Origin: Brevibacillus brevis
Lineage (GTDB): Bacteria > Bacillota > Bacilli > Brevibacillales > Brevibacillaceae
Assembly: GCF_031583145.1 (NCBI RefSeq)
Contig: NZ_CP134050.1
Span: forward strand, 2,369,501 to 2,433,500
DNA: 64,000 bases
Reading direction: 5' to 3'
Position 1 is the stretch's first letter, and every line of letters begins with the position of its first letter. Under the pieces are notes generated by a model that made no database searches, was not told the origin of the DNA, and saw only the letters and a list, made by a program, of their open reading frames with translations. A program made the translations under genes and the position numbers. This document shows, piece after piece, positions 45,509-63,743 of the stretch.

Positions 45509-45624
45509 ATTTATAGGGTGTGAAATGATATACCCTTTGACCATCAGCCTGCTAAAGCTTTGAAGCAAGAAGCTGTCCGACAGGAGACAGGGAAGCTTAC
45601 ACCATATCCAGGCTTGATTGCGAA

Positions 45625-45653: not shown

Positions 45654-45779
45654 AAGCACCTGGAAAATCGACATGTTTCACCCGTGCGAACAGTAGGTTG
45701 GAGCGCCGCTGTACAGTCGCAATTGCTGTCATTCTTGGGCAGACTCATTAAACACCCGCAACCAAAAAGGGAGGTATGT

Positions 45780-46550
45780 ATGAATCGAGTTGAGCGGAGC
45801 AAAGAAACGTACAAACAACTATTTGGTGATGGCGTACCTTCCGCGTATGCGACCGACCCTGATTTTCAGGATATCCTGAGCCGCTTTATTTTCGGGGAAG
45901 TTTTCTACCAAGGTCAGCTGCATCATATGGAGCGTGAGCTGATCACTTTGGTCGTGCTCACCGCCAATCAGTCATGGCCCCAGCTAAAAGCGCACGTGAA
46001 CGCTGCACTGAACGTTGGGCTGACACCGGTAGAGATCAAAGAGGCCCTTTACCAATGCGCACCATACCTTGGATTCCCCACAACGTTGAACGCCATCGCC
46101 GTGGCAAATGAGGTTTTCGAAGCGAGGAATATAGCGCTGCCCATTGAAAGTCAAAAGCAGGTTGAAGAAGAAAATCGTCATGAGAAGGGACTTGCCGTAC
46201 AGGTTGAAATTTTTGGCGATGTCATCGCCAACAATCGGGCGTCTGCTCCCTCTAATCAAAAGCATATCCAGGACTATCTTTCCGCTTTCTGCTTTGGCGA
46301 TTTTTACACCCGTAGTGGTCTTGCTTTAAAAATGCGCGAGCTGCTCACGCTGTGTATGGTGAGTTCGTTGGGAGGTTGTGAAAGCCAAGTGAAAGCTCAT
46401 GTACAGGGCAATCTCCATGTGGGAAATACCAAGGAAACCATGATCGCTGCCATCACGCACTGTCTTCCCTACATCGGTTTTCCCAGAGCGCTGAACGCAA
46501 TGGCTTGCATCAATGAAATCATTCCCGAAAAGCAAGAAGGGATGTTTTGA
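45780..46550 (+). CDS. Carboxymuconolactone decarboxylase family protein, two domains
   Basis: A 256-residue protein with two tandem CMD/AhpD-like domains (about 20-115 and 150-245). The repeats can be seen by eye: LITLVVLTANQSWPQLKAHVNAALNVG against LLTLCMVSSLGGCESQVKAHVQGNLHVG. The CxxC disulfide of AhpD is absent; one Cys remains in the second repeat. Activity is unclear; family members act as decarboxylases or redox enzymes. ATG at 45780 follows GGGAGG; upstream frame is not coding. Its usual companions in Bacillus, an SDR and a cupin, follow, the first as a relic. Confidence 0.88.
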   Translation: MNRVERSKETYKQLFGDGVPSAYATDPDFQDILSRFIFGEVFYQGQLHHMERELITLVVLTANQSWPQLKAHVNAALNVGLTPVEIKEALYQCAPYLGFPTTLNAIAVANEVFEARNIALPIESQKQVEEENRHEKGLAVQVEIFGDVIANNRASAPSNQKHIQDYLSAFCFGDFYTRSGLALKMRELLTLCMVSSLGGCESQVKAHVQGNLHVGNTKETMIAAITHCLPYIGFPRALNAMACINEIIPEKQEGMF

Positions 46551-46564
46551 ATTGGTCTATTCTG

Positions 46565-46687
46565 CAAGATAAAGTGGTCGTGTGATTACGGGGACTTCTT
46601 GAGGCATTGGAGAAGCGACCGCTATAGAGCCTGCAGCCAAGGGGGATGATTATTCGTCCACCCATTCAAGTCGGCTACTCATCATGA
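46565..46687 (+). pseudogene. Relic of a short-chain dehydrogenase/reductase (SDR)
   Basis: Codons from 46565 read QDKVVV, then after a 2-base frame change ITGTS, a TGA stop at 46600, and GIGEATAIEPAAKG: plainly the VVITGASSGIGEATAxELAAKG cofactor-binding start of an SDR, with one Ser codon now TGA. At 46646 the frame jumps to MIIRPPIQVGYSS and a stop at 46685-46687, like the RPxxQ C-terminus of this family. So about 200 central codons are missing and both ends remain. It has no ribosome site of its own. Confidence 0.75.
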
Positions 46688-46699
46688 AGGAGGATATAA

Positions 46700-47098
46700 A
46701 TGAAAAACGAACATTTGTGCAAGAGCACGATCTTCCCATTGGGCCAAAAAGTAGAACAATATTTTGTGGGCGATGCTTACTTGCAGATGGTGTTTACGGA
46801 TCCGAAGCCGCTGAATACAGCGATCGGGAATGTAACCTTTGCTCCTGGAGCTCGCAATAACTGGCACTCTCATCAGGCTGGGCAGGTCTTGTTGGTTACC
46901 GGCGGCGAGGGATGGTATCAAGAAGAAGGACAACCGGCTCAATTACTAAAAACAGGCGATGTGGTAAATATCCCGGCTCATGTAAAGCATTGGCATGGAG
47001 CAACGAAGGACAGTTGGTTTGTTCATCTAGCACTTACACCGGGGCAAACAGACTGGCTAGAACCCGTAACCGATGAAGAATATCGCAATCTTACGTAA
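46700..47098 (+). CDS. Cupin-domain protein
   Basis: A 132-residue single-domain cupin. NVTFAPGARNNWHSHQAGQVLLV is cupin motif 1 (metal-binding His pair and Glu/Gln region) and VVNIPAHVKHWHGA motif 2. Such cupins accompany CMD and SDR proteins in conserved Bacillus clusters of unknown function. ATG at 46700 follows AAGGAGGA. It is downstream of the CMD gene and the SDR relic. Confidence 0.88.
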   Translation: MKNEHLCKSTIFPLGQKVEQYFVGDAYLQMVFTDPKPLNTAIGNVTFAPGARNNWHSHQAGQVLLVTGGEGWYQEEGQPAQLLKTGDVVNIPAHVKHWHGATKDSWFVHLALTPGQTDWLEPVTDEEYRNLT

Positions 47099-47255
47099 AG
47101 GAAGGGAAAACATAGAGAAGGCAGCCGTGATGCGGCTGCCCTTTTTTTGTTTGAAAATCGGTTTCTATCTCTCGAATGGTTCAAACTACAAGGATGGGAG
47201 GGTAACTGGGGAAGATGACAAGAGACGAAGGAGGAAAAACCAGGATGAAATCATT

Positions 47256-47627
47256 GTGACCAGTTTATTCGTACAAGATCAAGACAAGGCACTGGAGTTT
47301 TACTCAGAAAAGCTGGGGTTTGTAAAAAAAGAAGACGTCCCCGTCGGAGAATATAGGTGGATTACACTTGTCTCTCCCGATGATCAGGAGGGTACCGAGC
47401 TTTTGCTCGAACCCAATAACCATCCTGCCGCAAAGGAGTATCAACAAAAGATATTTGCCGAGGGGATCCCAGCAACCATGTTTGGCGTTGCGGATATTCG
47501 AAACGAGTACCATCGATTACTGGAAAAAGGAGTAAAGTTTACGATGGAACCGACAAAAATGGGCGACGTCACAATTGCGGTCTTCGACGATACATGCGGC
47601 AACCTTATTCAGATCGTGCAGAAGTAG
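47256..47627 (+). CDS. VOC-family protein with disturbed start (possible frameshift)
   Basis: The frame codes a typical VOC/glyoxalase-fold protein: VTSLFVQDQDKALEFYSEKL, VGEYRWITLVSPDDQEG, TMEPTKMGDVTIAVFDDTCG. Its natural start would be ATG-AAA-ATC-ATT-GTG. The sequence has ATGAAATCATTGTGA at 47245, with GAAGGAGG ten bases upstream; one A is missing, so this ATG runs into a stop after four codons. Either the gene is disabled or the A was lost in sequencing. GTG at 47256 (124 residues) is possible but is 21 bases from the ribosome site. Confidence 0.6.
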   Translation: MTSLFVQDQDKALEFYSEKLGFVKKEDVPVGEYRWITLVSPDDQEGTELLLEPNNHPAAKEYQQKIFAEGIPATMFGVADIRNEYHRLLEKGVKFTMEPTKMGDVTIAVFDDTCGNLIQIVQK

Positions 47628-47721
47628 CTTCATGATGCAAGAGGGTTGGCGGATACCGGCTTCCTTGACCATTTCTTCCAGAAAGGCGTCCTCATAGCCT
47701 TGTTCAGACAAGTACAACTGG

Positions 47722-47757
47722 CTACCTCCGTCCGCATACGGAAGTAGCTTTTTTTGC
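47722..47757 (+). terminator. Terminator after the VOC gene
   Basis: GCTACCTCCGT (47722-47732) pairs with ACGGAAGTAGC (47739-47749, one mismatch), followed by eight T. Confidence 0.8.
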
Positions 47758-47792
47758 TTATACGGAGGCTTGAAAAGTTTGTTTTTAAAATA

Positions 47793-47845
47793 TTGACAAA
47801 TATCAGAAAACAATTTATTCTTTTCACTAAGGTAAGCGCTTAACC
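47793..47845 (+). promoter_or_regulatory. Promoter and operator of the ABC importer operon
   Basis: TTGACA (47793-47798), 17-base spacer, TATTCT (47816-47821), a near-ideal sigma-A promoter. GGTAAGCGCTTAACC at 47831-47845 lies just past the start point: a LacI-type operator with a 10-base palindromic core that also resembles cre. The 487-base gap 47628-48114 holds a terminator, this promoter and a second site. Confidence 0.75.
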
Positions 47846-47908
47846 TGATTTTTATGCTTATCTTTCTGAAATATTTTGCTAGATCTTTTTATATTCTCTG
47901 CGAAATAA

Positions 47909-47922
47909 GGTAAGCGTTTTCG
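47909..47922 (+). promoter_or_regulatory. Second LacI-type operator-like site before the importer
   Basis: GGTAAGCGTTTTCG shares GGTAAGCG with the site at 47831, 78 bases away, a spacing that would allow looping by a LacI-family tetramer or two dimers. Confidence 0.45.
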
Positions 47923-48114
47923 TTTTTGGGCCCATGACAGAGGAGATCCCCAAAAATCCGCTGTAACAAAAAACGTATCCGAAATTGCGGGTGCTGGAAA
48001 TCTGGCGGGAACCTGCGCAATCGGCGAAGGGAGGAAAATCTGCAAGTCTATGGCTGCGATGTTTCACCGGGCATTCGCAAAGACAACAAGAGAAAAGAGA
48101 AGGAGCGTGGATTC

Positions 48115-49164
48115 ATGCGACGCAAAATCAAGACATGGGTTGGCATGCTGCTGGCATGCTTGCTGCTCACGGCGGGGTGCGGGTCCTCGAACGCCGGGCA
48201 GGCCGGGAAACCATCGAACAGGCTGACCGTTTACACGGCTTTTCCGGAACAGGAAGTGATCCCGTACATCGAAGCTTTCCGCAAAGAAACAGGCATCGAC
48301 GTCAAATTCGTTCGTTTGTCCGCAGGGGAGACACTTGTCAGGCTCCAGGCGGAAAAAAATGCGCCGCAGGCCAGCGTCTGGTACGGCGGACCGTCTGATA
48401 CGTTCCATGCGGCTGCACAGGAAGGCCTGCTGGAAAAGTATCAGCCGAAGGAAGCCGCGCAGCTCCCCAAACGTTTTACCGACCCACAGGGGTACTGGTC
48501 GCCCGTGTACGTAGGCGCGCTCGGTTTTGCAGTAAATGAGGAATGGCTGAAGAAAAAAGGTCTATCGGCACCGGAAAGCTGGGACGATCTGCTGAAGCCG
48601 GAGTATGCCGATAACGTGGTCATGGCGCACCCAGGTGCCTCGGGGACTGCCTATACCGTGCTGGCCACCCTGGTGCAGATGATGGGTGAGGAGAAGGCAT
48701 TCGCGTACTTGAAAAAGCTTGACGCCCACATGCGCCAGTACACGAAATCCGGAAGTGCCCCGGCGAAACAAGCAGGGCTGGGCGAAACCGGCGTCGGCAT
48801 TTCCTTCGCCCATGACATCCTCGCACCGAAAAGCGAAGGCTATCCGCTTCTGCTCACGTTCCCCAAAGAAGGAACCGGGTATGAAATCGGCGCGGTGGCG
48901 CTGATCAAAAACGGTCCCGCGGATGAATTGGAAAATGCCAAGAAGTTCATCGATTGGACTGCGGGTCTCGAATCGCAAAATTTGTACGCCAAAACGAAAA
49001 CGTTCCGTCTGCCTGTCCGCCCCGACGCGGAAGTTCCGGAGGGGGCGGTCACCTTCGACAAGATCAAGCTGGCCGATTACGACGCAGTCTGGGCCGGAGA
49101 ACACCGGAAGGAGCTGGTGAAAAAGTTCGAGACCGAAGTCAGGGGGCAGTCGGGAGTCAAATAA
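48115..49164 (+). CDS. ABC substrate-binding lipoprotein, Fbp/Afu type (putative inositol phosphate binder)
   Basis: A 349-residue lipoprotein: signal MRRKIKTWVGMLLACLLLTA with lipobox LTAG-C. The mature part is a type-2 periplasmic-binding fold of the iron/thiamine/phosphorylated-sugar group (RLTVYTAFPEQEVIPYIEAF, SVWYGGPSDTFHAAAQEGLL, AHPGASGTAYTVLATLVQ). The adjacent Tyr-Tyr pair that binds Fe3+ in FbpA is absent, so iron is unlikely. Relatives (AfuA) bind hexose phosphates. With phytases and iol genes around, lower inositol phosphates are an attractive ligand, which is inference. ATG at 48115 follows GAAGGAG. Confidence 0.82.
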   Translation: MRRKIKTWVGMLLACLLLTAGCGSSNAGQAGKPSNRLTVYTAFPEQEVIPYIEAFRKETGIDVKFVRLSAGETLVRLQAEKNAPQASVWYGGPSDTFHAAAQEGLLEKYQPKEAAQLPKRFTDPQGYWSPVYVGALGFAVNEEWLKKKGLSAPESWDDLLKPEYADNVVMAHPGASGTAYTVLATLVQMMGEEKAFAYLKKLDAHMRQYTKSGSAPAKQAGLGETGVGISFAHDILAPKSEGYPLLLTFPKEGTGYEIGAVALIKNGPADELENAKKFIDWTAGLESQNLYAKTKTFRLPVRPDAEVPEGAVTFDKIKLADYDAVWAGEHRKELVKKFETEVRGQSGVK

Positions 49165-49192
49165 AAGTCTGCCTTGGAAGGAGCTGATGCGT

Positions 49193-50893
49193 ATGGCAAG
49201 TGACATGACGGTCTCCACGAAGCCAAAGCGGGAAAGAGGCGGTTTCATCCGGGTAAAAATGCTGGCGCGGGAGCCGTTCTTGCTCGGACTGATTGTTCTG
49301 GTCTTCTTGTCGCTGTTCCTGTTTGCCGTCCTGCCGATCTACCAGGTGATCAAAGTAACGGTCGTCGGTGATGCGGGAGCCGATCTTTCCAAAATCGGAG
49401 AAGTCCTGCAGGGTCATTTTCTTCATGTGATGTGGAACAGCATTCAATTGGGGCTCCTGTCCGCGGTGCTGTCCACGGTAGTTGGATTCGTGTTTGCCTT
49501 CGCCATTGCACGGACGGACATCAGGGGCAAGCGTCTGTTTCACTTGATTGCCCTCTTGCCGATCATCTCGCCGCCGTTCGTTCTGGCCTTGTCGACGATT
49601 TTGCTGTTCGGGCGCAACGGAATCATCACCCACGGCCTGCTCGGGCTGGAAGATGCGGACGTGTATGGGCTTGGCAGTCTAGTTTTTATCCAGACAATGG
49701 CGTTCTTTCCCCTTGCGTACCTGAACCTGCGGGGAGTCCTCGAATCGATCAATCCGTCGGTGGAAGATGCCTCGCTCAATCTGGGAGCAAGCCGGTGGCA
49801 AGTCTTCCGCACGGTCACCCTCCCGTTGGCGGTTCCGGGCATTTTTAGCTCGCTCCTGATCGTGTTCATCAAGTCGATTGAAGACTTCGGCAATCCGATG
49901 GTACTGGCGGGAGACTATTCGACGCTGGCCGTCCAGGCGTATTTGGAGATCACCGGGATGTACGATCTGCGATCGGGATCGTTCATGGCTGTTGCCATCC
50001 TGCTGCCTTCTATCACCGCCTTCTTGATCCAAAAGCACTGGCTCAGCAAAAAATCGTACGTCACCGTGACGGGAAAGCCGACCCAATCGTCCGTCCGCAT
50101 GGGTGAAAAGCGCATGGTGTACCCGCTCTTTGCCTTTTGCGCATTGGTCACGTCTGTCGTCCTGCTGTTTTACGGGACGGTGGCTGCCGGGGCATTCATC
50201 AAGCTGTGGGGGATCAACTTCACCTTTACCCTGGAGCATTTTTCCTACATCTTCACGCTCGGATTCGATTCCATCCTCAATTCCACCCTGCTGGCGGCAG
50301 CGTCCACGCCGCTCACGGCCATTTTGGGAATGGCGATCGCCTGGCTGGTGGTGAGGGAATCGTTCATCGGGAAAAAGGTGATGGAGCTGTCCTCGATCCT
50401 GACGTTTGCCGTTCCCGGCACGGTGGTCGGAATCGGCTACGTGCTCGCGTTCAACAAGCCGCCATTGCTTTTGACGGGAACGGCGCTGATTCTCATTGCC
50501 GCCTTTACATTCCGCAACATGTCGGTGGGGATTGAAGCCGGGACCAACAGCCTGAGGCAGATCGATGCATCGATCGAGGAGGCGTCGAAGAATTTGGGGG
50601 CGAGCAGCTTTGTCACCTTCTGGCGCATTTCGCTGCCGCTGATGAGGTCCGCGCTGTTCTCCGGACTCGTCTACTCGTTCGTACGCTCGATGACGTCCAT
50701 CAGCGCGGTCATTTTCCTCGTTTCCGCGAACTGGAATTTGCTGACCGTCTCGATTCTTTCTCAGGTTGAAGCGAGCAGGCTCGGGGCCGCTTCGGCGTAC
50801 TGCGTTCTCTTGATCGCAATGATCTTGTTCGCGATTGGCCTGCTGCAATTTCTCGTTAACCAACTCCAGCCAAAGAACAGGAGGAGAGCATGA
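49193..50893 (+). CDS. ABC permease, fused double-domain Fbp/Afu type
   Basis: A 566-residue permease formed of two fused halves with about 12 membrane helices. Each has the EAA loop that docks with the ATPase: EDASLNLGASRWQVFRTVTLPL (first half) and EEASKNLGASSFVTFWRISLPL (second half). This layout is typical of AfuB/FbpB. ATG at 49193 is nine bases past GGAAGGAG; ATG at 49187 is closer but possible. It is the middle gene of the importer operon and abuts the ATPase gene. Confidence 0.9.
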   Translation: MASDMTVSTKPKRERGGFIRVKMLAREPFLLGLIVLVFLSLFLFAVLPIYQVIKVTVVGDAGADLSKIGEVLQGHFLHVMWNSIQLGLLSAVLSTVVGFVFAFAIARTDIRGKRLFHLIALLPIISPPFVLALSTILLFGRNGIITHGLLGLEDADVYGLGSLVFIQTMAFFPLAYLNLRGVLESINPSVEDASLNLGASRWQVFRTVTLPLAVPGIFSSLLIVFIKSIEDFGNPMVLAGDYSTLAVQAYLEITGMYDLRSGSFMAVAILLPSITAFLIQKHWLSKKSYVTVTGKPTQSSVRMGEKRMVYPLFAFCALVTSVVLLFYGTVAAGAFIKLWGINFTFTLEHFSYIFTLGFDSILNSTLLAAASTPLTAILGMAIAWLVVRESFIGKKVMELSSILTFAVPGTVVGIGYVLAFNKPPLLLTGTALILIAAFTFRNMSVGIEAGTNSLRQIDASIEEASKNLGASSFVTFWRISLPLMRSALFSGLVYSFVRSMTSISAVIFLVSANWNLLTVSILSQVEASRLGAASAYCVLLIAMILFAIGLLQFLVNQLQPKNRRRA

Positions 50894-51985
50894 ATGGCTG
50901 TGCCGCACAGGGAACTGGTCCGTTCGTCATCCGTCACGCTGAAGAACGTGGCGAAGACATTTACAACACCTGCCGGGGAAATGGCGTTTGCCGTGAAGGA
51001 TGTCAATCTCGCAGTCGAGCCTGGCCAGCTGGTGACCTTGCTCGGCCCCTCGGGCTGCGGGAAAACGACGACGCTGCGCATGCTCGCCGGGTTCGAAACG
51101 CCGTCGTCCGGGGACATTTTCATCGGTCCGCAAAAGGTCACCACAGTACCGCCGAACAAGCGGGATGTGGGAATGGTGTTCCAAAGCTACGCGTTGTTTC
51201 CCCATCTCAGCGTCTACGACAACATCGCCTACGGGCTGGCGATCAAAAAGGTGCCCAAAGAGCAGCTGGCCTCTCGGGTGAAAAAGGTCCTGCAGCTCAT
51301 GCATTTGGATGAGCTGCAGGACCGGTTCCCCGCGCAGCTTTCCGGCGGGCAACAGCAGCGAGTAGCCTTGGCCCGCTCGGTTGTAACCGAACCGCGTGTG
51401 CTGCTGTTTGATGAGCCGCTGTCCAATCTGGACGCCAAACTGCGGGAGTACATGCGAGACGAGCTGAGGAAGCTGCAGCAAAGCCTGGGAATCACCAGTC
51501 TGTACGTGACCCATGACCAGTCGGAAGCGCTGGCGATCTCCGACATGGTCGTCATTATGAACAAAGGAAGCGTGCAGCAGATCGGCACGCCCCGCGACAT
51601 TTATTTGCAGCCCCAAAACCGCTTTGTCGCCGATTTTATGGGTAAAGCCAACTTTCTTTCCGCCAAAGTGAAGGAATGGCGGGGAACGGAGGCGGCAATC
51701 GAGTGGGCAGGAGGGGTGATCCGGGTGGAAACGAAGCGGCGGATGAGCGAGGGCCAACAAGTCGACTGCGTTGTTCGCCCTGAATTTTGGACCCTCGATC
51801 CGTCCGGAGAGTTTGAAGGGCGAGTCCTCCGCACGACATACCTCGGCACCCATGTGGAATACGAAATCTCCATCGGAAGCGATATCGTCACGATGTACGA
51901 CTACCAGCACCACGTGAACGGAGTCAGCCCGCAAGGAGAAAGGGTACGGCTAAGGCTGCGGTGTGAGTACATCACGCTGATTTGA
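50894..51985 (+). CDS. ABC importer ATPase, Fbp/Afu type
   Basis: A 363-residue ATPase: Walker A LLGPSGCGKTTTLRML, Q-loop MVFQSYALFPH, signature LSGGQQQRVALARS, Walker B VLLFDEPLSNLD, switch VTHDQSEAL. A C-terminal TOBE-like domain (about 285-360) follows, as in FbpC/PotA-type subunits. It starts directly at the stop of the permease gene. There is no other permease in the cluster so it must serve the fused permease. Confidence 0.92.
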   Translation: MAVPHRELVRSSSVTLKNVAKTFTTPAGEMAFAVKDVNLAVEPGQLVTLLGPSGCGKTTTLRMLAGFETPSSGDIFIGPQKVTTVPPNKRDVGMVFQSYALFPHLSVYDNIAYGLAIKKVPKEQLASRVKKVLQLMHLDELQDRFPAQLSGGQQQRVALARSVVTEPRVLLFDEPLSNLDAKLREYMRDELRKLQQSLGITSLYVTHDQSEALAISDMVVIMNKGSVQQIGTPRDIYLQPQNRFVADFMGKANFLSAKVKEWRGTEAAIEWAGGVIRVETKRRMSEGQQVDCVVRPEFWTLDPSGEFEGRVLRTTYLGTHVEYEISIGSDIVTMYDYQHHVNGVSPQGERVRLRLRCEYITLI

Positions 51986-52028
51986 TCCCTGTTCGGTTGC
52001 AAACGCACGGGGAAACGCGGCCTTTTGA

Positions 52029-52042
52029 GAAAGCGGTTAACC
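52029..52042 (+). promoter_or_regulatory. LacI-type operator-like site before the phytase
   Basis: GAAAGCGGTTAACC, similar to sites at 53570 and 54654. The 345-base gap 51986-52330 contains this, the importer terminator, and a GC-rich leader with a nested hairpin TCGG-GCGGT-gcga-ACCGC-CCGA at 52160-52186. I see no clear promoter. Confidence 0.45.
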
Positions 52043-52075: not shown

Positions 52076-53449
<1,374 letters not shown>

Positions 53450-53533: not shown

Positions 53534-53585
53534 TTTTCAAACAAACGTGGCAACTGTATAATGATGGTAGGTTAAGCGGTTACCC
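53534..53585 (+). promoter_or_regulatory. iol operon promoter with LacI-type operator
   Basis: TTTTCA (53534-53539), 17-base spacer, TATAAT (53557-53562). GGTTAAGCGGTTACCC at 53570-53585 covers the expected start point, well placed for repression. Confidence 0.7.
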
Positions 53586-53623: not shown

Positions 53624-54655
53624 TTGAAAACATTGACCATCGGCATGATCGGCGCCGGGAGAATCGGACTATTGCATGCCGAAAATTTGCTCCGCAACAA
53701 ACAGGTAAAGGTGAAGGCGATTTCCGACATCCGTGTGGATCACCTGCGTGAGTGGGCAGCTGCGGAACAGGTCGAAACGGTGACAGCAGACAGCCGGGCA
53801 TTGCTGCAGGACCCGGATCTCGACGCCGTTTTCATCTGTTCGTCCACTGACACCCACGTCTCCTACATCATCGAGGCGGCACGGGCAGGCAAGCACATCT
53901 TTTGCGAGAAGCCGATCAGCTTTGACCCGCAGGAAACGGCTCAGGCGCTGGCCGTCGTCAAGCAGTGCGGCGTGCAGCTGCAGACGGGCTTCAACCGGAG
54001 ATTCGACCACAATTTCATGAAAGTCCGCCAGCTGATTGAAACGGGCCAAATCGGCGAACCCCACATCATTCGGATTACGTCGCGGGACCCTGAGTTGCCT
54101 TCCTACGACTACATCAAAAGGTCGGGCGGCCTACTGTTCGATATGGCCATCCACGATTTTGACATGGCCCGCTTTTTGGCCGGCAGCGAGGTGGAAGAAG
54201 TGTACGTGAAGGGAGCCGTGCTCGTGGACGCCAAGGTCGGCGAACTGGGAGACATCGATACCGCGGTGACCTTGCTCACGTTTCAGAACGGCGCCGTCTG
54301 CGTGATCGACAACAGCCGCCGCGCTGCCTACGGCTACGATCAGCGGGTGGAGGTGTTCGGGTCGAAAGGAAGTGTCAGCGTGGTCAACGACACGGACAGT
54401 TCTGCAGAATGGAGCACGGCCGAAGGAGTGTTCCGCGAGAAGCCCAAGCACTTCTTCCTCGAGCGCTACCAGGAAGCATACGTCCGGGAGACGAACGCCT
54501 TCGTCGCCAGCATCCAAGCCGGGACTCCGGTGCCGGTGGACGGTCACGACGGATACATGGCGGAAGTGATCGCGGCTGCCGCACAAAAATCGCTGGCGGA
54601 GAAACGGCCGGTACCTGTTGCAGAGATGCTGCGAGCGTTTACGCATGCGGGTTGA
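53624..54655 (+). CDS. iolG: myo-Inositol 2-dehydrogenase
   Basis: A 343-residue NAD-dependent dehydrogenase of the Gfo/Idh/MocA family, oxidising myo-inositol to scyllo-inosose (2-keto-myo-inositol), the first catabolic step. MIGAGRIGLLHAENL is the NAD fold; CEKPISFD has the catalytic lysine and DMAIHDFDMARFLAG the Asp/His pair of IolG. Length equals the B. subtilis enzyme. The start is TTG at 53624, with AAGGGAG ten bases upstream. It is the first gene of the operon, directly behind a LacI-type operator. Confidence 0.92.
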   Translation: MKTLTIGMIGAGRIGLLHAENLLRNKQVKVKAISDIRVDHLREWAAAEQVETVTADSRALLQDPDLDAVFICSSTDTHVSYIIEAARAGKHIFCEKPISFDPQETAQALAVVKQCGVQLQTGFNRRFDHNFMKVRQLIETGQIGEPHIIRITSRDPELPSYDYIKRSGGLLFDMAIHDFDMARFLAGSEVEEVYVKGAVLVDAKVGELGDIDTAVTLLTFQNGAVCVIDNSRRAAYGYDQRVEVFGSKGSVSVVNDTDSSAEWSTAEGVFREKPKHFFLERYQEAYVRETNAFVASIQAGTPVPVDGHDGYMAEVIAAAAQKSLAEKRPVPVAEMLRAFTHAG

Positions 54656-54669
54656 TTAAGCGGTTACCC
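54654..54669 (+). promoter_or_regulatory. Operator-like site between iolG and iolD
   Basis: GATTAAGCGGTTACCC, 14 of 16 bases as in the iolG operator. It overlaps the iolG stop. No promoter is visible here, so it may act as a roadblock or auxiliary site. Confidence 0.5.
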
Positions 54670-54692: not shown

Positions 54693-56558
54693 ATGTCGAA
54701 GACGATTCGCCTGACGATGGCGCAAGCCCTGCTCCGATTTTTGGACGCGCAATACGTAAGCGTAGACGGTGTGGAGCGAAAATTCGTCCGGGGGGTGATG
54801 GGAATATTCGGGCATGGCAACGTCACGGGAATGGGAGAGGCGCTGGAGCGGCAGCGAGGCGGCTTGGACTTCCTGCAGGGCAAGAACGAGCAGGGAATGG
54901 CCCACGCCGCGATCGCGTTTGCCAAGCAAAAAAACCGGCTGGAAATATTCGCTTGTACCTCTTCCATCGGACCGGGGGCGCTCAACATGGTAACCGCCGC
55001 GGCGACGGCGACAATCAATCGCATCCCGCTGTTGCTTTTGCCCGGCGACATATTTGCCTGCCGCCAGCCCGATCCCGTCCTGCAGCAGATCGAGCACGGA
55101 GCCGATTACACGGTGTCCGCGAACGATGCGTTCAAGCCGGTCAGCCGATACTGGGACCGAATCAGCCGGCCCGAACAGCTGATGACGGCAGCCGTCCACG
55201 CGATGAGAGTGCTCACCGACCCGGAGGAGACCGGGGCCGTGACACTGGCGTTGCCGCAAGATGTGCAATGCGAATCGTACGATTACCCGCAGGAGTTTTT
55301 CGAAAAGCGAGTTCACTGCCAGGAGAGACGCCCCCCTTCCGAAGAGGCTATGAAACGGGCGATTTCGCTGGTGATGGGGAAAAAGAAGCCGCTGATCATC
55401 GCGGGCGGCGGGGTCCACTATTCGCTGGCAACGGACGCGTTGGCGGATTTCGCCCGGACCTTCCACATCCCGGTGGCGGAAACGCAAGCCGGAAAAAGTG
55501 CCTTGCCGTGGGACTCGGAATGGAACGCGGGGTCTATCGGCGTGACCGGAGCGCTCCCGGCGAACCGGCTGGCCGCGGAAGCCGATCTGGTGATCGCGGT
55601 CGGAACCAGGCTGTCCGATTTCACCACGGCGTCCAAAACGGCGTTCCGCAACCCGGATGTCGAATTTCTCGGGATCAATGTCAGCCGTATGGACGCTGCA
55701 AAGCTGAGCGCCCACGAACTGGTGGCGGATGCTCGAATCGCCCTGAAGCGGCTGGGACAACAACTCCTGGCCGAAGGGTACCGCTCCTCGCATAACAGAG
55801 CCGAGCTTTCCGCCTTGAACGGGGAGTGGCGCGCAGAGGTCGATCGCTTGTACGCGGCAAGGGCGGAAGCTGGCTTGACACAGACGGAGGTGCTCGGCGA
55901 AATCAACCGCATAGTCGGAGAGGACGCCGTCATCGTATGCGCAGCGGGAAGCCTGCCCGGCGATCTGCACCGGCTGTGGCGCAGCCGGAAAGCGAAGTCG
56001 TACCACATGGAATACGGATTTTCCTGCATGGGCTACGAGGTGGCCGGCGCTTTCGGGGTAAAGCTGGCGGAGCCGAAGTGCGATGTGTACGCTCTCGTCG
56101 GGGACGGCAGTTACCTGATGCTCCACTCGGAACTCCTGACAAGCATTCAGGAAGGGGTCAAAATCAACATTTTGCTTTTCGACAACCACGGCTTCCAGTG
56201 CATTCACAACCTGCAGAGAAGCAATGGCAGCGACGGCTTCGGCAACGAATTTCGCAGGCGGTCGCAAAATGGTTCACTAGATGGAGCGTATTTGCCCGTA
56301 GATTACGCCGCCCACGCCAGGAGCATGGGGGCTGACGCGTGGACGGTGAAATCGTTGGAGGAATTGAGGGAGGCGCTCGACGCAGCCCGGCACAGCCCGG
56401 TCTCCGCGCTCATCGAGATCAAGGTGCTTCCCGGCACGAATACGGACGGGTACGAATCCTGGTGGCGGGTCGATCCCGCAGGTGTCTCCAACAGCGAGAA
56501 AGTGACGGCCGCCCGCGAGCGGATGGAAAGGCAGCTCGGATTCGCCAAACCGTTTTGA
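54693..56558 (+). CDS. iolD: 3D-(3,5/4)-trihydroxycyclohexane-1,2-dione hydrolase
   Basis: A 621-residue thiamine diphosphate enzyme that opens the ring of trihydroxycyclohexanedione to 5-deoxy-glucuronate. The three TPP-family domains are visible: pyrimidine domain with [20 protein letters not shown], middle domain, and PP domain with [16 protein letters not shown] (around 470) binding Mg-diphosphate. [18 protein letters not shown] is typical of IolD. ATG at 54693 follows AAAGGAG. It lies 37 bases after iolG, with an operator-like site between. Confidence 0.94.
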
Positions 56559-56574: not shown

Positions 56575-57513
56575 ATGAGCATTGCTTGGGGCCAGCTGAA
56601 GCTCGGCATATCGCCGATTAACTGGGTAAACGAAGATGTGCTGGAGCTGGGCGATCACTATACCTACGAAGAAGTGCTAGACGACTTTGCCCGGCTTGGC
56701 TTTTCCGGCACGGAGAATTGTCGCAAATTTCCGAAAGATCCTCGTCTTCTAAAGGAGGCGCTGGGGGACCGGGGGATTCAACTGACGTCGCAATGGAAAG
56801 GAGTGGTGTTTTCCGACCCCGCCATTCGGCAAGCGGAGCTGGCGGCGTACCGTCGGCATGTGGAGTTCCTGCACGAAATGGGAAGCGAGCACGTCGTAAC
56901 TTGCGAGCTTGGCGGTTCCATCATCGGGGATGCGCGCCGACCCCGTGGAGTGGTAGAGGTCATCCCGCCAACCGACGAACAATGGAACCACATGGTGGAA
57001 GGGCTGCATCAGGCCGGCGACATCTGCCGGGAATACGGCATGAAGCTCGTCTACCACTACCATATCGGGACGATAGTGGAAAAACCGGAAGAGATCGACC
57101 GGCTGATGGAAACGACCGATCCGGATTTGGTCCACCTCTTGTTCGACACCGGGCATGCGTACTACGGCGGAGCGGATCCGCTGATGCTATTGACGAAGTA
57201 CGCGGACCGGATCCCCTACATTCATTTGAAGGATGTCCGCCAGGAAGTGCTTGATCGCGTGCGTGCGAAGCAGATGCCGTTCCAGTCGGCTATCCGCGAA
57301 GGAGTGTTTACGGTGCCGGGCGACGGCGCCATCGACTTTAGCCCCATTCTCCGGAAGCTGATTCAAAACGGCTTCGCAGGATGGATGATTCTCGAAGCCG
57401 AACAGGATCCGGCTATCGCCGAGCCAAACGCATACGCGGAAAAATGCAAACGCTATCTCGATTCCATTTTGCAGCCAAACGGCGGGAAGGAGGAGCAGCC
57501 TTGTCCAATCTGA
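56575..57513 (+). CDS. iolE: myo-Inosose-2 dehydratase
   Basis: A 312-residue TIM-barrel lyase (xylose isomerase-like fold) that dehydrates scyllo-inosose to trihydroxycyclohexanedione. LGISPINWVNEDVLELGDHY, then VYHYHIGTIVEKPEEIDRLM, HLLFDTGHAYYGG and IHLKDVRQE are characteristic; the His, Asp and Glu residues there bind the metal. ATG at 56575 follows AAGGAGG. It overlaps iolB by 13 bases. Confidence 0.93.
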   Translation: MSIAWGQLKLGISPINWVNEDVLELGDHYTYEEVLDDFARLGFSGTENCRKFPKDPRLLKEALGDRGIQLTSQWKGVVFSDPAIRQAELAAYRRHVEFLHEMGSEHVVTCELGGSIIGDARRPRGVVEVIPPTDEQWNHMVEGLHQAGDICREYGMKLVYHYHIGTIVEKPEEIDRLMETTDPDLVHLLFDTGHAYYGGADPLMLLTKYADRIPYIHLKDVRQEVLDRVRAKQMPFQSAIREGVFTVPGDGAIDFSPILRKLIQNGFAGWMILEAEQDPAIAEPNAYAEKCKRYLDSILQPNGGKEEQPCPI

Positions 57514-58301
57514 TTGTGCGAAAAGGCAGTCGCGGTCCGGGAGGCAACGTGCTGACCATCACACCCCAATCCGCAGGGTGGAAATACGTCGGCTTTGAGG
57601 TGTACCAGCTGAAGCAGGGGGAGACGCTCCAGAGGGACACGGACGGTCGAGAAGCATGCATCGTGCTGCTCGGCGGGAAGGCCCACGTAAAGACCGCCCA
57701 TGCCTCTTTTTCCGAAATCGGCCGGCGAATGAGCGTGTTCGAAGGAACGCCAGCCTGCTCGGTCTACGTCCCTGCTGGCGACCGGTTTGTCGTGGAAGCA
57801 GTCACGGATCTGGAATTCGCCTGCTGCTGGGCACCTGCACAGGGCATCCTCGAGGCGAGGCTCGTATCACCTGAGCAGGTAGGCGTGGAAAAGCGCGGAA
57901 ACGGTGAAATGGAAAGGACGGTCCACAACATTCTGCCGGAGAGCCAGCCCGCCGAAAGCTTGCTGGTGGTGGAAGTATTCACGCCTCCGGGGCACTGGTC
58001 CAGCTACCCGCCGCACAAGCACGATGTAATGAATCTGCCGCAAGAATCGCTGCTGGAGGAAACGTACTATCACAAGGTGGATCCGGCTCACGGGTTTTGC
58101 CTGCAGCGGGTGTACACCGACGACCGTTCTCTGGACGAAGTGCTCGTCGTACGGGACGGGGACGCGGTGCTCGTTCCTCGAGGGTATCATCCCGTTTCGG
58201 CTCCGCCGGGCTACGCCGTCTATTACTTGAACGTCATGGCGGGCCCGGTTCGGACCTGGAAATTTCGCAATGATCCCGATCACGAATGGTTGTTTACATG
58301 A
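57501..58301 (+). CDS. iolB: 5-Deoxy-glucuronate isomerase
   Basis: A 266-residue cupin-type isomerase turning 5-deoxy-glucuronate into 2-deoxy-5-keto-gluconate. NVLTITPQSAGWKYVGFEVY and SSYPPHKHDVMNLPQE are family signatures; the HKH with Glu and a later His bind the metal. The start is TTG at 57501, nine bases past AAGGAGG and inside the end of iolE. Length compares with 271 in B. subtilis. Confidence 0.92.
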   Translation: MSNLIVRKGSRGPGGNVLTITPQSAGWKYVGFEVYQLKQGETLQRDTDGREACIVLLGGKAHVKTAHASFSEIGRRMSVFEGTPACSVYVPAGDRFVVEAVTDLEFACCWAPAQGILEARLVSPEQVGVEKRGNGEMERTVHNILPESQPAESLLVVEVFTPPGHWSSYPPHKHDVMNLPQESLLEETYYHKVDPAHGFCLQRVYTDDRSLDEVLVVRDGDAVLVPRGYHPVSAPPGYAVYYLNVMAGPVRTWKFRNDPDHEWLFT

Positions 58302-58321
58302 AGCGCAGGGAGGAGCCGATC

Positions 58322-59323
58322 ATGAGCGTCTTGTCGTTCCCGGCAGATCGTCCGCTCGACTTTATCGGGCTGGGCAGACTGTGCGTGGACTTGAATGCGA
58401 ATGAAATACACCGTCCGATGGAAGACACGCGGACGTTTACGAAATACGTCGGGGGCTCTCCGGCGAATATCACCATCGCGCTGGCGAAACTGGGCATGCG
58501 TACAGGCTTTGTCGGCAGGGTGGCTGACGATGCCCACGGACGCTTCATCGTGCAGTATCTTCGGGAGTGCGCCATCAATACGGACGGAATCGTCGTGGAT
58601 CGGTCAGGTAGCGTGACAGGGCTGGCATTTACGGAAATCAAATCGCCGACGGATTGCAGCATCCTGATGTACCGGGACAATGTGGCTGACCTCAAACTGG
58701 AACCGTCCGACGTAGACGAAGCTTACATCCGGCAGGCCAAATCGCTCTTGATATCCGGTACCGCGCTGGCGAAAAGCCCTTCCCGAGAAGCGGTCTTCAC
58801 CGCCTTGGAATACGCCCGGAAACACGGAGTCGTCACGGTATTTGACATCGACTACCGGCCGTATACGTGGCAGTCGATTGCGGAGGTCGCGGTGTACGGG
58901 AGACTGGTCGCGGAAAAGTGCGACGTCATCCTCGGTGGACGGGAAGAATTCGATCTCCTGGAAGCGCTGGACGGACCGCCTGCGCAGGATGACCAGGCAA
59001 CGGCCCGCTACTGGCTGCGTCAGGGGGCAAAAATTGTCGTCGTCAAGCGCGGCTCGGAAGGCAACACTGCCTATTCCAGCGATGGGCGCATCAGCAAAGC
59101 GGCGATTTTCCCGGCTGAAGTCGTCAAGACGTTCGGTGCCGGCGATTCGTTTGCCGGAGCCTTTCTGTACGGATTGATGCAGGGGTATAGCCTCGATCGC
59201 TGCCAGCAGCTAGGGAGCGCAGCCGCTTCCATCGTCGTATCGAGCCACAGCTGCTCCGAGGCGATGCCTACCGTGGAACAGATCCGGCAGCGCATCGAGC
59301 GGTACGAGAAACAAGGAATTTGA
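58322..59323 (+). CDS. iolC: 5-Dehydro-2-deoxygluconokinase
   Basis: A 333-residue PfkB-family kinase that phosphorylates 2-deoxy-5-keto-gluconate. LDFIGLGRLCVDLNANEI and VGGSPANITIALAKLGMRTG form the N-terminal signature; TFGAGDSFAGAFLYGLM has the catalytic Asp and the anion hole. I prefer ATG at 58322, 7 bases past GGGAGGAG, over ATG 58298, which lies inside iolB. Confidence 0.92.
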   Translation: MSVLSFPADRPLDFIGLGRLCVDLNANEIHRPMEDTRTFTKYVGGSPANITIALAKLGMRTGFVGRVADDAHGRFIVQYLRECAINTDGIVVDRSGSVTGLAFTEIKSPTDCSILMYRDNVADLKLEPSDVDEAYIRQAKSLLISGTALAKSPSREAVFTALEYARKHGVVTVFDIDYRPYTWQSIAEVAVYGRLVAEKCDVILGGREEFDLLEALDGPPAQDDQATARYWLRQGAKIVVVKRGSEGNTAYSSDGRISKAAIFPAEVVKTFGAGDSFAGAFLYGLMQGYSLDRCQQLGSAAASIVVSSHSCSEAMPTVEQIRQRIERYEKQGI

Positions 59324-59335: not shown

Positions 59336-60187
59336 GTGCTAGTGCATCTAAAGGAACTGGTGCAGGAAGCTTCGAGAAGCGATTACGCCGTCCCAGCCTT
59401 CAATGTCTTCGGATATGAAGACGCGGTGGCGGTCGTCCGGGCGGCGGAAGAAGTGGAGGCTCCCGTCATCCTCGCTACCAACCTGGCGGCGGTCAATCAT
59501 ATGCCGTTTCCTTTCATCGCGCCTGTCCTGATTGAAGTGGCCAAAGCAGCCAACGTGCCGGTGTGCCTGCATTTGGATCACGGAAAAGACTACGACTACG
59601 TCGCCGCTGCCATCGCCCACGGCTATACATCTGTCATGTTTGACGGCTCGCAGCTGCCGTTGGAAGAAAACATTCGCCAAACGAAGGCGATCGTCAAAAT
59701 GGCTGCCGAACACGGGGTTTCAACGGAAGCCGAGATTGGCTCGGTTGGCTACAGCGACCCTGCTATGGGGATGAAGCACGCGTACAGCGATCCGGAGGAA
59801 GTGCGGATTTTTGTGGAGGAGACGGGGATCGATGCCGTAGCCGTTTCGATCGGCACTGTCCACCGCATGGAGGAGCAGGGGGCCGACATCGATTTTGGCC
59901 TGCTGCACCAGATCGAGGCGAGAGTCCCTACCCCGCTCGTCCTGCACGGCTCGACCGGAGTCCGCGATGACGATTTGCGCCGGCTTGCTACCAGTCGGAT
60001 CGCCAAGGTCAATATCGGGACCGCTCTGCGAATGGCGTTCGGCAAAACGCTGCGCAGCGAAGTGGCGGAGAACCCGGACCAATTCGACCGCATCCAGCTG
60101 TTTCAACAGCCGATGGAAGCGGTGAAGCAGACAGCTTTGCAAAAGTTTTCACTTTTGGGGTTGGGGAGGAACGCATCATGTCGGTAA
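59336..60187 (+). CDS. iolJ: 6-Phospho-5-dehydro-2-deoxy-D-gluconate aldolase
   Basis: A 283-residue class II aldolase splitting the phosphorylated acid into dihydroxyacetone phosphate and malonate semialdehyde. [15 protein letters not shown] holds the zinc ligand and Asp; [20 protein letters not shown] and [14 protein letters not shown] give the remaining metal and phosphate sites. It is a homologue of fructose bisphosphate aldolase; the iol context indicates IolJ. The start is GTG at 59336 behind GAGGAGGAG. Its end overlaps iolA by 10 bases. Confidence 0.9.
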
Positions 60188-61632
60188 ACGTGTCGGTCTT
60201 GCAAAACTACATCGGAGGGAGGTGGGTCGATTCGGAAGCAGTCCGGGGAGAGCCGGTGCCCAATCCGGCGACCGGCGAGATTCTCGCGCAGGTCCCGCTT
60301 TCGACCGCGACAGATCTGGATCGCGCTGTCGACGCGGCGGCAAAGGCGTTTCAGGAGTGGAGAAGAGTGCCGGTACCGCGTCGGGCCCGCATCCTGTTTG
60401 CCTACCAGCAGCTGCTGGTGAAGCATTGGGACGAGCTGGCCCGTCTGATCACGGAGGAAAACGGGAAGAGCTACCAGGAAGCCTACGGGGAAGTGCAGCG
60501 CGGGATTGAATGCGTGGAATTTGCGGCAGGGGCGCCCACGCTCCTGATGGGATCTACACTGCCGGATATCGCAACGGGCATCGAATCGTCCATGTATCGG
60601 TACCCGCTCGGGGTTGTCGCCGGCATTACGCCGTTCAATTTTCCCATGATGGTTCCGTGCTGGATGTTTCCTCTCGCCATTGCTTGCGGAAACACGTTCG
60701 TGCTGAAACCGTCGGAGAGGACGCCGCTGCTTGCGAACCGGCTGGCACAGCTGCTTGCGGAAGCGGGCTTGCCGGACGGCGTGTTCAACATCGTCCACGG
60801 CGCACATGACGTCGTGAACGGAATGCTGGCCCATCCCGACATCGCGGCCGTTTCGTTCGTAGGTTCGCAGCCCGTCGCCGAATACGTGTACAAAACGGCG
60901 GCGGCCCACGGGAAACGCGTACAGGCGCTGGGCGGAGCCAAAAACCATTCGGTCGTGATGCCGGACGCCGACTTGGCGCTGGCTGCCAAAGAGATCATCA
61001 ATGCGGCATTCGGCTCCGCCGGGGAGCGCTGCATGGCCTGCTCGGTCGTCGCCGCCGTCGGAGGGATCGCCGATGAACTGGTAGATCGTCTGTACCAAGG
61101 AGCCAAACAGCTCACGGTCGGCAACGGTTTGCAGGAGAACGTGTTTTTGGGGCCGGTCATCCGGGAGGGACACAAGGAGAGGACCATCCGCTATATCGAG
61201 AAAGGCGTGGTAGAAGGGGCGAAGCTCGTTCTGGACGGCAGGCGGCATCCCGCCGCGGAAGGGGAAGGATACTTTCTCGGTCCGACTCTCTTCGACCATG
61301 CACAGGGCGGCATGACCATCTGGACAGATGAAATTTTTGCGCCCGTGCTCCAGGTCGTCCGGGTCAGCTCCTTGCAAGAAGCCATTCGTTTGGCCAACCG
61401 ATCGGAATTTGCCAACGGCGCGTGCATTTATACAAACAGCGCCAAAGCCATCCAGGAATTCAGGGAAACGGTGGATGCCGGGATGCTGGGCGTCAACGTA
61501 GGCGTACCCGCGCCAATGGCGTTCTTCCCGTTCTCCGGCTACAAAAAGTCGTTTTATGGCGATCTGCACGCCAACGGAAGGGACGGCGTCGAGTTTTACA
61601 CCCGCAAGAAGATGATGGTAGCCCGCTATTAA
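60178..61632 (+). CDS. iolA: Methylmalonate/malonate-semialdehyde dehydrogenase (CoA-acylating)
   Basis: A 484-residue aldehyde dehydrogenase that converts malonate semialdehyde with CoA and NAD to acetyl-CoA and CO2, the last step. [44 protein letters not shown] and [14 protein letters not shown] (catalytic Cys near 287) are IolA/MmsA signatures. ATG at 60178 follows GGGGAGG and lies inside the end of iolJ. With it the operon reaches central metabolism. Confidence 0.95.
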
Positions 61633-61752: not shown

Positions 61753-62757
61753 ATGGCTACAATCTATGACATTGCGAAAGAAGCGGGGGTTTCTATCGCT
61801 ACGGTCTCCAAAGTCATCAACCAAACCGGACGCATCAGCGACAAGACGAGACAGCACGTGATGGAGGTAATGAAGCGGCTGAATTACCAGCCGAGCGTGG
61901 TTGCATCGGCGCTCACCAAAAAACGGACGTACACGATCGGACTCTTGGTGCCGGATCTGGCCAACCCGTTTTTCGCGGAGATCGCGAGGAGCGTGGAGGA
62001 CCGCGCCCATGAACTGGGCTACAATCTGGTGATTTGCAATACCGACAACGACCTGAACAAGGAAGAGAGATACACCAATCTGCTTCGGCAGAAAAGCGCG
62101 GATGGCATTATTCTCGCGACCGGGGTCAGAAGCAGCGCCAGCCTGAAAAAGCTCCTTCAGCAGAAACAGGCCATCGCCGTGATCGCCCGCGACATGCCCG
62201 CCCTGGCAGTGGACACCGTGCTCGTCGACGACTTTTTGGGAGGATATTTGGCGGCGAGCCACCTTCTCGAGCTCGGCCATCGGCATATTGCCGTGATCTC
62301 GGAAGATTTGGAAGTCATGAGCAGCCGGGATCGGGTACGCGGCTATCGCCAGGCATTGGAGGAAGCCGACGTCCCCTTCGAGGAAAAATGGGTCCGGGTC
62401 AGTGCCTTTCAACTGCAGGACGGGAAAGAGACGGCCGGACGATTGCTCGACGAACCGGATCGGCCGACGGCGATTTTCGCCTGCAACGATCTGCTGGCCA
62501 TCGGCGCCATCCAGGCTGCACGAGAACGGGGATTGGCGGTGCCTCGAGATTTGTCCGTCGTCGGTTTTGACAACACGGTGTTGGCTGGCATCATCGACCC
62601 GCCTCTGACCACGATCGCCCAGCCGATTCAGGAAATGGGCAGGCAGGTCGTGAACCTGATCTCCCAGGAGATCAACGGGGAGAAAAACGCCAAACAGCGC
62701 GTGGTCTTGGTACCCGAGCTGGTGGTGCGCGAATCTACGGGGCAGTGGGGGGCCTAA
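61753..62757 (+). CDS. LacI-family regulator, probable regulator of the island
   Basis: A 334-residue repressor. ATIYDIAKEAGVSIATVSKV is the N-terminal helix-turn-helix, followed by a hinge and a periplasmic-binding-type ligand domain (GLLVPDLANPFFAEIARSVE; FACNDLLAIGAIQAARERGL; VVGFDNTVLAGIIDPPLTTI). ATG at 61753 follows GGGGGAG. It lies between iolA and the PTP-like phytase. B. subtilis controls iol with IolR of the DeoR family, so this is a different solution. Seven operator-like sites surround its neighbours; ligand unknown. Confidence 0.9.
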   Translation: MATIYDIAKEAGVSIATVSKVINQTGRISDKTRQHVMEVMKRLNYQPSVVASALTKKRTYTIGLLVPDLANPFFAEIARSVEDRAHELGYNLVICNTDNDLNKEERYTNLLRQKSADGIILATGVRSSASLKKLLQQKQAIAVIARDMPALAVDTVLVDDFLGGYLAASHLLELGHRHIAVISEDLEVMSSRDRVRGYRQALEEADVPFEEKWVRVSAFQLQDGKETAGRLLDEPDRPTAIFACNDLLAIGAIQAARERGLAVPRDLSVVGFDNTVLAGIIDPPLTTIAQPIQEMGRQVVNLISQEINGEKNAKQRVVLVPELVVRESTGQWGA

Positions 62758-62788
62758 CTTCACCTCCTTCACGCCCGAAGGCGAACTC

Positions 62789-62801
62789 GTAAGCGCTTTC
62801 C
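62789..62801 (+). promoter_or_regulatory. Operator/cre-like site before the PTP-like phytase
   Basis: GTAAGCGCTTTCC, core identical to the importer operator (AAGCGCTT). Confidence 0.45.
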
Positions 62802-62846
62802 TTAGGTGGGCGCGAGCTTGGCACATGGAGAAAGGAGTGGCATGGA

Positions 62847-63701
62847 ATGGAACTACCGCTGCTCATCATTGAGGCGGACAATACGGATGATCTCCCGCTG
62901 AGGTTTCGGATGGCAAGCACGCCGCATTCCGGGGAGACGGCAGGCATGCCGGACCTGGCCGGCTATCACGAGCTGAACATTTCGGGGAGCGGCCAGTTTT
63001 CGGAAAAAGGGCTCCGGCGTATGCGGCAGCTGATTGGCGAAGGTCCTGCTATAATCGTGGACCTGCGGCAGGAATGTCACGGATTTGTCAACGGAATGGC
63101 AGTCTGCTGGTTCGGTACCCACAACAACGCCAACAAGGGGCTGTCCCGGGAGCAGGTCGAAGAGCAGGAAGCACAGCGCCTGCGCGGCCTGAAGGAAGCG
63201 GCAGAAGTCGCGTTCGACTACCTGGAGGGCAAGTCGGCCGAGGTGCATCTGCCGGGACCGATCAGTTCGCCTGTAACCGTACAATCAGAAAAGGAACTGG
63301 CGAAGCAGGAAGGGTTTCTCTATACCCGCTTTTTTGTCACAGACCACCATCGTCCCGGGGACGACGAGGTCGATCGGTTCATCACGTTCGTAAACAGTCA
63401 AACGAACGAAATCTGGCTGCATTTTCACTGCCGGGGAGGCGTCGGAAGGACGACCACGTTCATGCTGATGTACGACATGATGCGAAACGCTAAGCGCGTC
63501 GGCCTGAGCGACATACTGGAACGCCACCGGCTGAGCGGTGGGCGCGACATGTACCGCATGGACCCGCAGCGGGACGGCTACAAGTACGCACCGGCGGTCG
63601 AAAGACTGGCTTTCCTTCAACAATTTTACCAGTATTGCGCCGACGATCAGGACGGATTTGAAACATCCTGGTCGGAGTGGCTGAAACGCCAGAACTCCTG
63701 A
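62847..63701 (+). CDS. PTP-like phytase (inositol phosphate phosphatase), cytoplasmic
   Basis: A 284-residue phosphatase of the protein-tyrosine-phosphatase-like phytase family. HCRGGVGRTTT (Cys about 195) is the CX5R P-loop; RFFVTDHHRPGDDEVD gives the TDH general-acid loop found in phytases of this family. YMxRMDPQRDGYKY-type and HELNISGSGQFSEKGLRR segments fit too. Known members are secreted; this one has no signal peptide, so it should work inside the cell on imported inositol phosphates. ATG at 62847 follows AAAGGAG. It is preceded by an operator-like site. Confidence 0.88.
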   Translation: MELPLLIIEADNTDDLPLRFRMASTPHSGETAGMPDLAGYHELNISGSGQFSEKGLRRMRQLIGEGPAIIVDLRQECHGFVNGMAVCWFGTHNNANKGLSREQVEEQEAQRLRGLKEAAEVAFDYLEGKSAEVHLPGPISSPVTVQSEKELAKQEGFLYTRFFVTDHHRPGDDEVDRFITFVNSQTNEIWLHFHCRGGVGRTTTFMLMYDMMRNAKRVGLSDILERHRLSGGRDMYRMDPQRDGYKYAPAVERLAFLQQFYQYCADDQDGFETSWSEWLKRQNS

Positions 63702-63727: not shown

Positions 63728-63743
63728 GGAAAAGCGCTTACCC
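63728..63743 (+). promoter_or_regulatory. Operator-like site before the last lipoprotein gene
   Basis: GGAAAAGCGCTTACCC, again with the AAGCGCTTA core seen at 47831. Confidence 0.5.

Follow-up and report, generated by a model that had tools for sequence, protein, structure and literature searches.

A PTP-like phytase without a signal peptide, encoded beside a putative importer and inositol catabolic genes, suggests a two-stage route for phytate use in Brevibacillus brevis

The gene at positions 62847–63701 of the window (the whole stretch of DNA analysed, 64,000 nucleotides from Brevibacillus brevis) probably codes for a PTP-like inositol-polyphosphate phosphatase that acts in the cytoplasm and would provide one step of a two-stage pathway for the consumption of phytate. 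This interpretation draws on what the sequence shows, namely the enzyme family, the intact catalytic residues, the lack of an export signal and a conserved co-localisation with other genes. Phytate is the main plant store of phosphorus, and its use by bacteria is usually described as dephosphorylation outside the cell or in the periplasm, after which phosphate and inositol are taken up. It seems fairly likely that the gene set described here represents an undescribed bacterial route, in which inositol polyphosphates would be taken up by a dedicated ABC importer and dephosphorylated in the cytoplasm (by the signal-less PTP-like phytase, a HAD enzyme and an inositol monophosphatase), with coupling to inositol catabolism and priming outside the cell by a propeller phytase.

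The open reading frame, on the forward strand, runs exactly from 62847 to 63701, starts with ATG (N-terminus MELPLLIIEADNTDD) about 9 nucleotides downstream of a ribosome-binding site (AAGGAG) and codes for 284 amino acids. The product scored 91.4 bits against the Pfam family PTPlike_phytase (PF14566; cut-off 27) and its best match among solved structures was the phytase 3f41 (E = 1.2e-99), which confirmed the family assignment made in an earlier sequence-only reading. The best 20 of the 39 solved-structure sequences listed belong to the PTP-like phytase family (E = 1.2e-99 to 8e-37); 16 of these are named as phytases or myo-inositol phosphohydrolases, three only as tyrosine phosphatases and one is a designed derivative. 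Most of the remaining 19 matches, which start at E = 2e-4, are ordinary phosphatases of the tyrosine or dual-specificity kind. The score against the NCBIfam XopH model (NF041348) was 179.1 bits and did not reach the equivalog cut-off of 500. The P-loop HCRGGVGRT (C195 and R201) and the acid loop TDH (D166) are intact, as that reading had also stated, and these three residues were invariant in all 10 PTP-like phytases aligned, as were D72, R74, E76 and H78 of the DLRxExHG region. A predicted structure of the protein, aligned with its homologue from locus L003, was of low confidence (mean pLDDT 37.2), probably because too few sequences were aligned.

Activity on InsP6 is inferred, and the protein might instead be a cytoplasmic phosphatase for some other substrate, such as a phosphoprotein, a nucleotide or a phosphorylated inositol intermediate (e.g. 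the IolC product). Some PTP-like phytases do have broad specificity, according to the available part of PMC3981807, and broader PTP families also match the protein weakly. We nevertheless regard this explanation as improbable, as the family matched is specific for phytases, the nearest solved relatives are inositol-polyphosphate phosphatases, and the Arg that follows the P-loop Cys is common to Bd1204, where, in the part of the Bd1204 work available, R207 was modelled near InsP6.

The window genome (G000) appears to contain a complete kit for phytate consumption, those of its genes that lie in the window being on the forward strand. A beta-propeller phytase gene (52331–53449), whose product has a hydrophobic, signal-like N-terminus and scored 565.4 bits against PF02333 (cut-off 21), precedes iolG (inositol 2-dehydrogenase, 53624–54655, TIGR04380), iolD (54693–56558, TIGR04377) and iolE (myo-inosose-2 dehydratase, 56575–57513, TIGR04379). 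The scores of the latter three (460.2, 963 and 392.7 bits) exceed the equivalog cut-offs of 355, 715 and 290, so that the test for a myo-inositol catabolic cluster was met. Pfam matches identified iolB (KduI/IolB family, 57501–58301, start codon uncertain), an iolC-like kinase gene (PfkB, 58286–59323) and an iolJ-like aldolase gene (59336–60187), and these are followed by an iolA-like gene for a (methyl)malonate semialdehyde dehydrogenase (Aldedh, 60178–61632), a gene matching the LacI family of regulators (61753–62757) and the PTP-like phytase gene. The importer that the sequence-only reading had placed nearby proved to be real: the gene for its substrate-binding lipoprotein starts at 63835, passes the end of the window at 64000 and runs on to L002:3059 in the same genome. 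Beyond the window, L002:3097–9460 encodes a TIM barrel protein, a fused permease, an ATPase, an MgtC-family protein, a HAD-IIB phosphatase and an inositol monophosphatase, with gaps of 1–40 bases from the lipoprotein gene to the monophosphatase gene (some start codons are approximate). The monophosphatase scored 230.6 bits against PF00459 (cut-off 27) and 171.2 against PRK10757 (equivalog cut-off 332). It was the finding of the propeller phytase, a second and probably secreted phytase that the earlier reading had not mentioned, that led to the two-stage picture.

Elsewhere in the genome (G000:C1:1106534–1107616; L044:7535–8653) there is a second beta-propeller phytase gene, 52% identical to the first; one of the 39 genomes of the order, that of the window, has propeller phytases, in these two copies. 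Just before the phytate-related stretch, the G+C content falls to 0.475 (window positions 44001–48000), compared with 0.52–0.59 elsewhere, and this dip may mark the edge of an old insertion. A second ABC system (48115–51985; PhnS2/PhnU2/PhnT2-like, below cut-offs) lies just upstream of the propeller phytase gene. It was considered as the importer and rejected, as it was not found in the other four loci described below, where only weak cross-matches of ATPase and permease were seen.

Searches for PTP-like phytases comprised 1872 genome look-ups, repeats included; a pattern scan of 84,980 species used exact eight-residue patterns and was therefore insensitive. Signal-less homologues were found in five genomes, namely that of the window, a Pseudogracilibacillus MAG (G783, phytase 50% identical) and three of the 235 genomes of another family (G1685, G1730 and G1734). 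The gene is present in one of the 39 genomes of the window's own order; a weak match in G037/G870 (64 residues, E = 5.7e-4) was dismissed as unrelated, with no P-loop pattern in the locus. The five phytases are 47–62% identical to one another, and in two (G1685 and G1734) Ala replaces the Thr after the P-loop Arg. All five loci contain genes for the PTP-like phytase, lipoprotein, TIM barrel, fused permease, ATPase, MgtC, HAD phosphatase and inositol monophosphatase, as well as a LacI-family gene and iolG, D, E, B, C and A, so that an importer, two further phosphatase genes and inositol catabolic genes accompany the phytase in every case (hereafter, the module). Identities to the window genome's set are 50–61% for the phytase, 41–56% for the lipoprotein, 59–74% for the permease, 68–76% for the ATPase and 38–70% for MgtC; with importer and phosphatase proteins only 38–76% identical, the conservation does not reflect recent copying. 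Three gene orders were seen, one in G000 and G1730, a second in G1685 and G1734 and a third in G783.

The remaining members of the module vary more. IolJ resembles that of the window in G783 and G1730, is only 33% identical in G1685 and was unmatched in G1734. Judged by identity, the LacI protein of G1730 is an orthologue (82%) and that of G783 probably is (48%), those of G1685 and G1734 being only 32–34% identical. A natural fusion in G1730 joins the HAD-IIB phosphatase and the inositol monophosphatase in one reading frame of 545 amino acids (L051:18183–19820) with both Pfam domains. The iolD gene of the same genome (L051:3248–5115) is split into two overlapping reading frames, by a frameshift or a sequencing error. 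Propeller phytases with a signal-like N-terminus are encoded in four of the five module loci; none was found in the parts of G783 that were compared (L003 and L029), so that trimming outside the cell is either not obligatory or is done elsewhere.

Export was assessed from N-terminal hydropathy (the highest mean over 10 residues) together with a check of start codons, and not with a trained predictor. The value for the window phytase was 1.55. Two proteins of its locus that served as controls, the propeller phytase and the lipoprotein, gave 2.58 and 2.50, and relatives of the Selenomonad type with an ATG start gave 2.47–3.56. Before the ATG, the frame stays open for 18 codons (as far as a stop at 62790) with no ATG, GTG, TTG or CTG among them, and an upstream start that could add a signal peptide was thus excluded; the earlier claim that the protein has no such peptide was upheld. 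The other module homologues gave values of 1.56 (G783), 1.09 (G1730), 1.18 (G1734) and 0.31 (G1685; 0.75 from its farthest upstream ATG), so by hydropathy the signal is absent from all five, and an N-terminal hydrophobic stretch is clear in 4/4 propeller phytases and 5/5 lipoproteins of the module loci. For comparison, a search of the phylum provided 11 PTP-like phytase stretches in nine reading frames from five other genomes. Every one of the nine has a hydrophobic N-terminal stretch (2.47–3.65), in two cases only if a non-ATG start is accepted, and a tree (unrooted, with few groups sampled) separated the five module proteins from the 11 exported stretches with branch support of 100/100.

The statement in the earlier reading that characterised members of the family are exported agrees with the available parts of two papers, in which Bd1204 is periplasmic (PMC3981807) and XopH is injected (PMC5735085). 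An export signal is, however, a habit of the characterised PTP-like phytases and not a definition of the family. As these relatives act outside the cytoplasm of the producing cell, at least according to those parts, the window protein could also be an ordinary extracellular phytase that leaves the cell without a classical signal, by non-classical export or lysis. This seems very improbable, since all five module homologues lack a signal where their neighbours have one, the locus already encodes a phytase with a signal-like N-terminus, and the phytase gene is adjoined by an importer and by genes for monophosphatases of an intracellular type. The proposal of a cytoplasmic enzyme with an importer nearby is supported as far as sequence can go, with five of five homologues signal-less and the same importer alongside; the cytoplasmic localisation itself is inferred.

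To place the module among other inositol loci, we used as controls four (L040–L043) of the eight other genomes of the order with iolD above its cut-off (nine of 39, including G000). None of the four control iol loci gave a tblastn match at 1e-8 to the module phytases, lipoprotein or permease, or to the TIM barrel, MgtC, HAD or monophosphatase proteins; ATPase matches were 25–29% identical and represent other ABC systems. L040 and L041 encode, beside the iol genes, a double-domain ABC ATPase of the sugar type (about 500 amino acids), and the system to which it belongs is likely to be a free-inositol importer. The idea that the module importer is the usual inositol transporter of the group was rejected, as the two control loci whose genes were read one by one have this different ATPase. 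Importer orthologues without the phytase were sought in the order and none was found, the best other lipoprotein matches being partial and 24–33% identical.

The substrate of the importer is inferred. The binding protein scored 38.7 bits against the PhnS2 NCBIfam equivalog (cut-off 392.75), and the fused permease and ATPase scored 137.4 and 319 bits against 2-aminoethylphosphonate importer equivalogs (cut-offs 593.25 and 457.7), so none of the three was met. Binding proteins of all five modules match organophosphonate binders, specifically the 2-aminoethylphosphonate model NF011620, far below its cut-off. No solved structure resembles the binding protein more than weakly (E about 1e-6, over half of the chain) and the predicted structure of the L003 binding protein was of low confidence (mean pLDDT 37.6, probably from too few aligned sequences); consequently, the ligand is a guess. 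According to the available part of PMC4546632, AfuA, which falls broadly into the class of this binding protein, has nanomolar affinity for sugar phosphates and does not bind free sugar. An alternative that we consider unlikely is that the importer carries another substrate (free inositol, a phosphonate or glycerophospho-inositol) and that the phytase has a side role, for example in clearing inositol phosphates that arise or enter by other routes. The best family models, all 2-aminoethylphosphonate transporters although all far below cut-off, and a TIM barrel that matches only the phosphodiesterase CbiR and would fit a diester substrate, are compatible with it; yet none of the gene families identified in the module is a phosphonate-degrading one, and the module instead has three phosphomonoesterase families plus, in four of five cases, the propeller phytase, and phosphatases would be unneeded for free inositol, the control iol loci being without them. 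Import of inositol phosphates remains the reading that we prefer.

The roles of two other conserved proteins are also inferred. The TIM barrel (L002:3097–4011), which is CbiR/endonuclease-IV-like and present in all five modules, has CbiR as its only NCBIfam match in each (E down to 5e-9) and retains a group of invariant His, Glu and Asp residues reminiscent of the metal ligands of endonuclease IV; it may act on an inositol phosphate as a metal-dependent phosphatase or diesterase. The MgtC-family membrane protein (L002:7056–7820), likewise present in 5/5, may be linked to the balance of Mg2+ or phosphate while phytate is being used.

Operator-like palindromes were found before several of the genes: the PTP-like phytase gene (LacI-type or cre-like, 62787–62802, core AAGCGCTT at 62791–62798), the lipoprotein gene (GGAAAAGCGCTTACCC, 63728–63743), iolG (GGTTAAGCGGTTACCC, 53570–53585), iolD (GATTAAGCGGTTACCC, 54654–54669) and, at a distance of 296 bp, the propeller phytase gene (GAGAAAGCGGTTAACC, 52027–52042). 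The same kind of palindrome occurs at 47830, 277 bp before the second ABC system. With up to three mismatches to GGTTAAGCGCTTAACC allowed, four sites were present in the window compared with 0.14 expected (0/100 shuffles reached four), and these precede the second ABC system, iolG, iolD and the lipoprotein gene. A looser scan of 47601–71459, which gained the site before the propeller phytase gene, gave eight sites (mean 1.32 and maximum 5 in 100 random sequences), one of which overlaps another and two of which are inside genes; the site before the window phytase gene is under the looser threshold, with its core retained. Sites in G1730 precede the propeller phytase gene, iolG (L051:2129), iolD (L051:3219) and, at the same place as in the window, the PTP-like phytase gene (L051:11331); no good sites were found in G1685 or G1734. 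We infer that the LacI-family regulator probably controls the gene set, but the palindromes may instead be CcpA sites, which look similar, so the regulator is not proven. More AAGCGCTT sites lie at 38428, 41926 and 43011, in and near genes for two solute symporters and a dehydrogenase; these could be recognised by CcpA or be due to chance.

Dephosphorylation by PTP-like phytases generally halts at Ins(2)P, a poor substrate for inositol monophosphatases, and this would explain why the HAD enzyme, and possibly the TIM barrel, is needed. The propeller phytases of Bacillus are reported to finish at Ins(2,4,6)P3 (available part of PMC11943157), leaving a substrate for a second enzyme, and this end product, taken with sugar-phosphate binding by AfuA, suggested a model of trimming, import, dephosphorylation inside the cell and entry into the iol pathway. 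According to the model, the order of whose steps is inferred, the secreted propeller phytase would remove part of the phosphates from (calcium) phytate outside the cell, the PhnS-like lipoprotein would bind those inositol phosphates that remain (most likely InsP3 and lower), and their import would fall to the fused permease and the ATPase. Inside the cell, the PTP-like phytase would continue the dephosphorylation, and the last phosphates would be removed by the HAD enzyme and the inositol monophosphatase, perhaps together with the CbiR-like TIM barrel; free myo-inositol would then enter the iol pathway, with IolG acting first, and the freed phosphate would be used or controlled, perhaps with MgtC.

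No bacterial inositol-phosphate importer or cytoplasmic PTP-like phytase was evident from titles or the openings of abstracts in the open-licence literature (subscription papers and preprints were outside the search), and neither is described in the available parts of PMC9430895, PMC10128089, PMC6409689, PMC3981807, PMC5735085, PMC12482443, PMC12838507, PMC11943157 or PMC4546632. Within those parts, a 2025 review of inositol metabolism in the gut emphasises that specific phytate transporters are lacking there (PMC12482443), and a 2026 pig-gut study saw no conservation between genera in the genes that surround phytase genes (PMC12838507). Bacterial import of inositol phosphates thus seems to be undescribed, and a two-stage module for phytate import and catabolism is likely to be new. 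The conserved module would give a first candidate for a bacterial inositol-phosphate importer and would explain a possible fate of the InsP3 left by propeller phytases. It would also couple the gain of phosphorus and carbon from a single molecule that is not shared with neighbours.

The window protein has the fold family, P-loop, general-acid loop and DLRxExHG region of PhyA (Selenomonas), PhyAmm (3f41) and Bd1204 (Bdellovibrio), and is 28–38% identical to the exported PTP-like phytase stretches found; however, those three have signal peptides and act outside the cell or in the periplasm, whereas the module proteins have none, carry HCRGGVGR[TA] and form a separate group. It shares its catalytic domain with XopH and other injected PTP-like phytases but has no effector context, sitting instead in a metabolic operon. 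The propeller phytase resembles Bacillus PhyC and PhyD in its PF02333 domain and its hydrophobic, signal-like N-terminus, but its gene lies with iol genes and a second, probably cytoplasmic phytase. The importer has the binding-protein class and the ATPase and permease type of AfuABC and PhnSTUV, although the equivalog cut-offs were missed by far. In B. subtilis, the iol genes are served by a DeoR-type regulator, IolR, and an MFS carrier, IolT. Compared with the Bacillus iol operon (iolABCDEFGHIJ), with which it shares iolG, D and E above NCBIfam cut-offs and the families of iolB, C, J and A, the window locus adds phosphatases, phytases, MgtC, an organophosphate-type importer and a LacI-family regulator.
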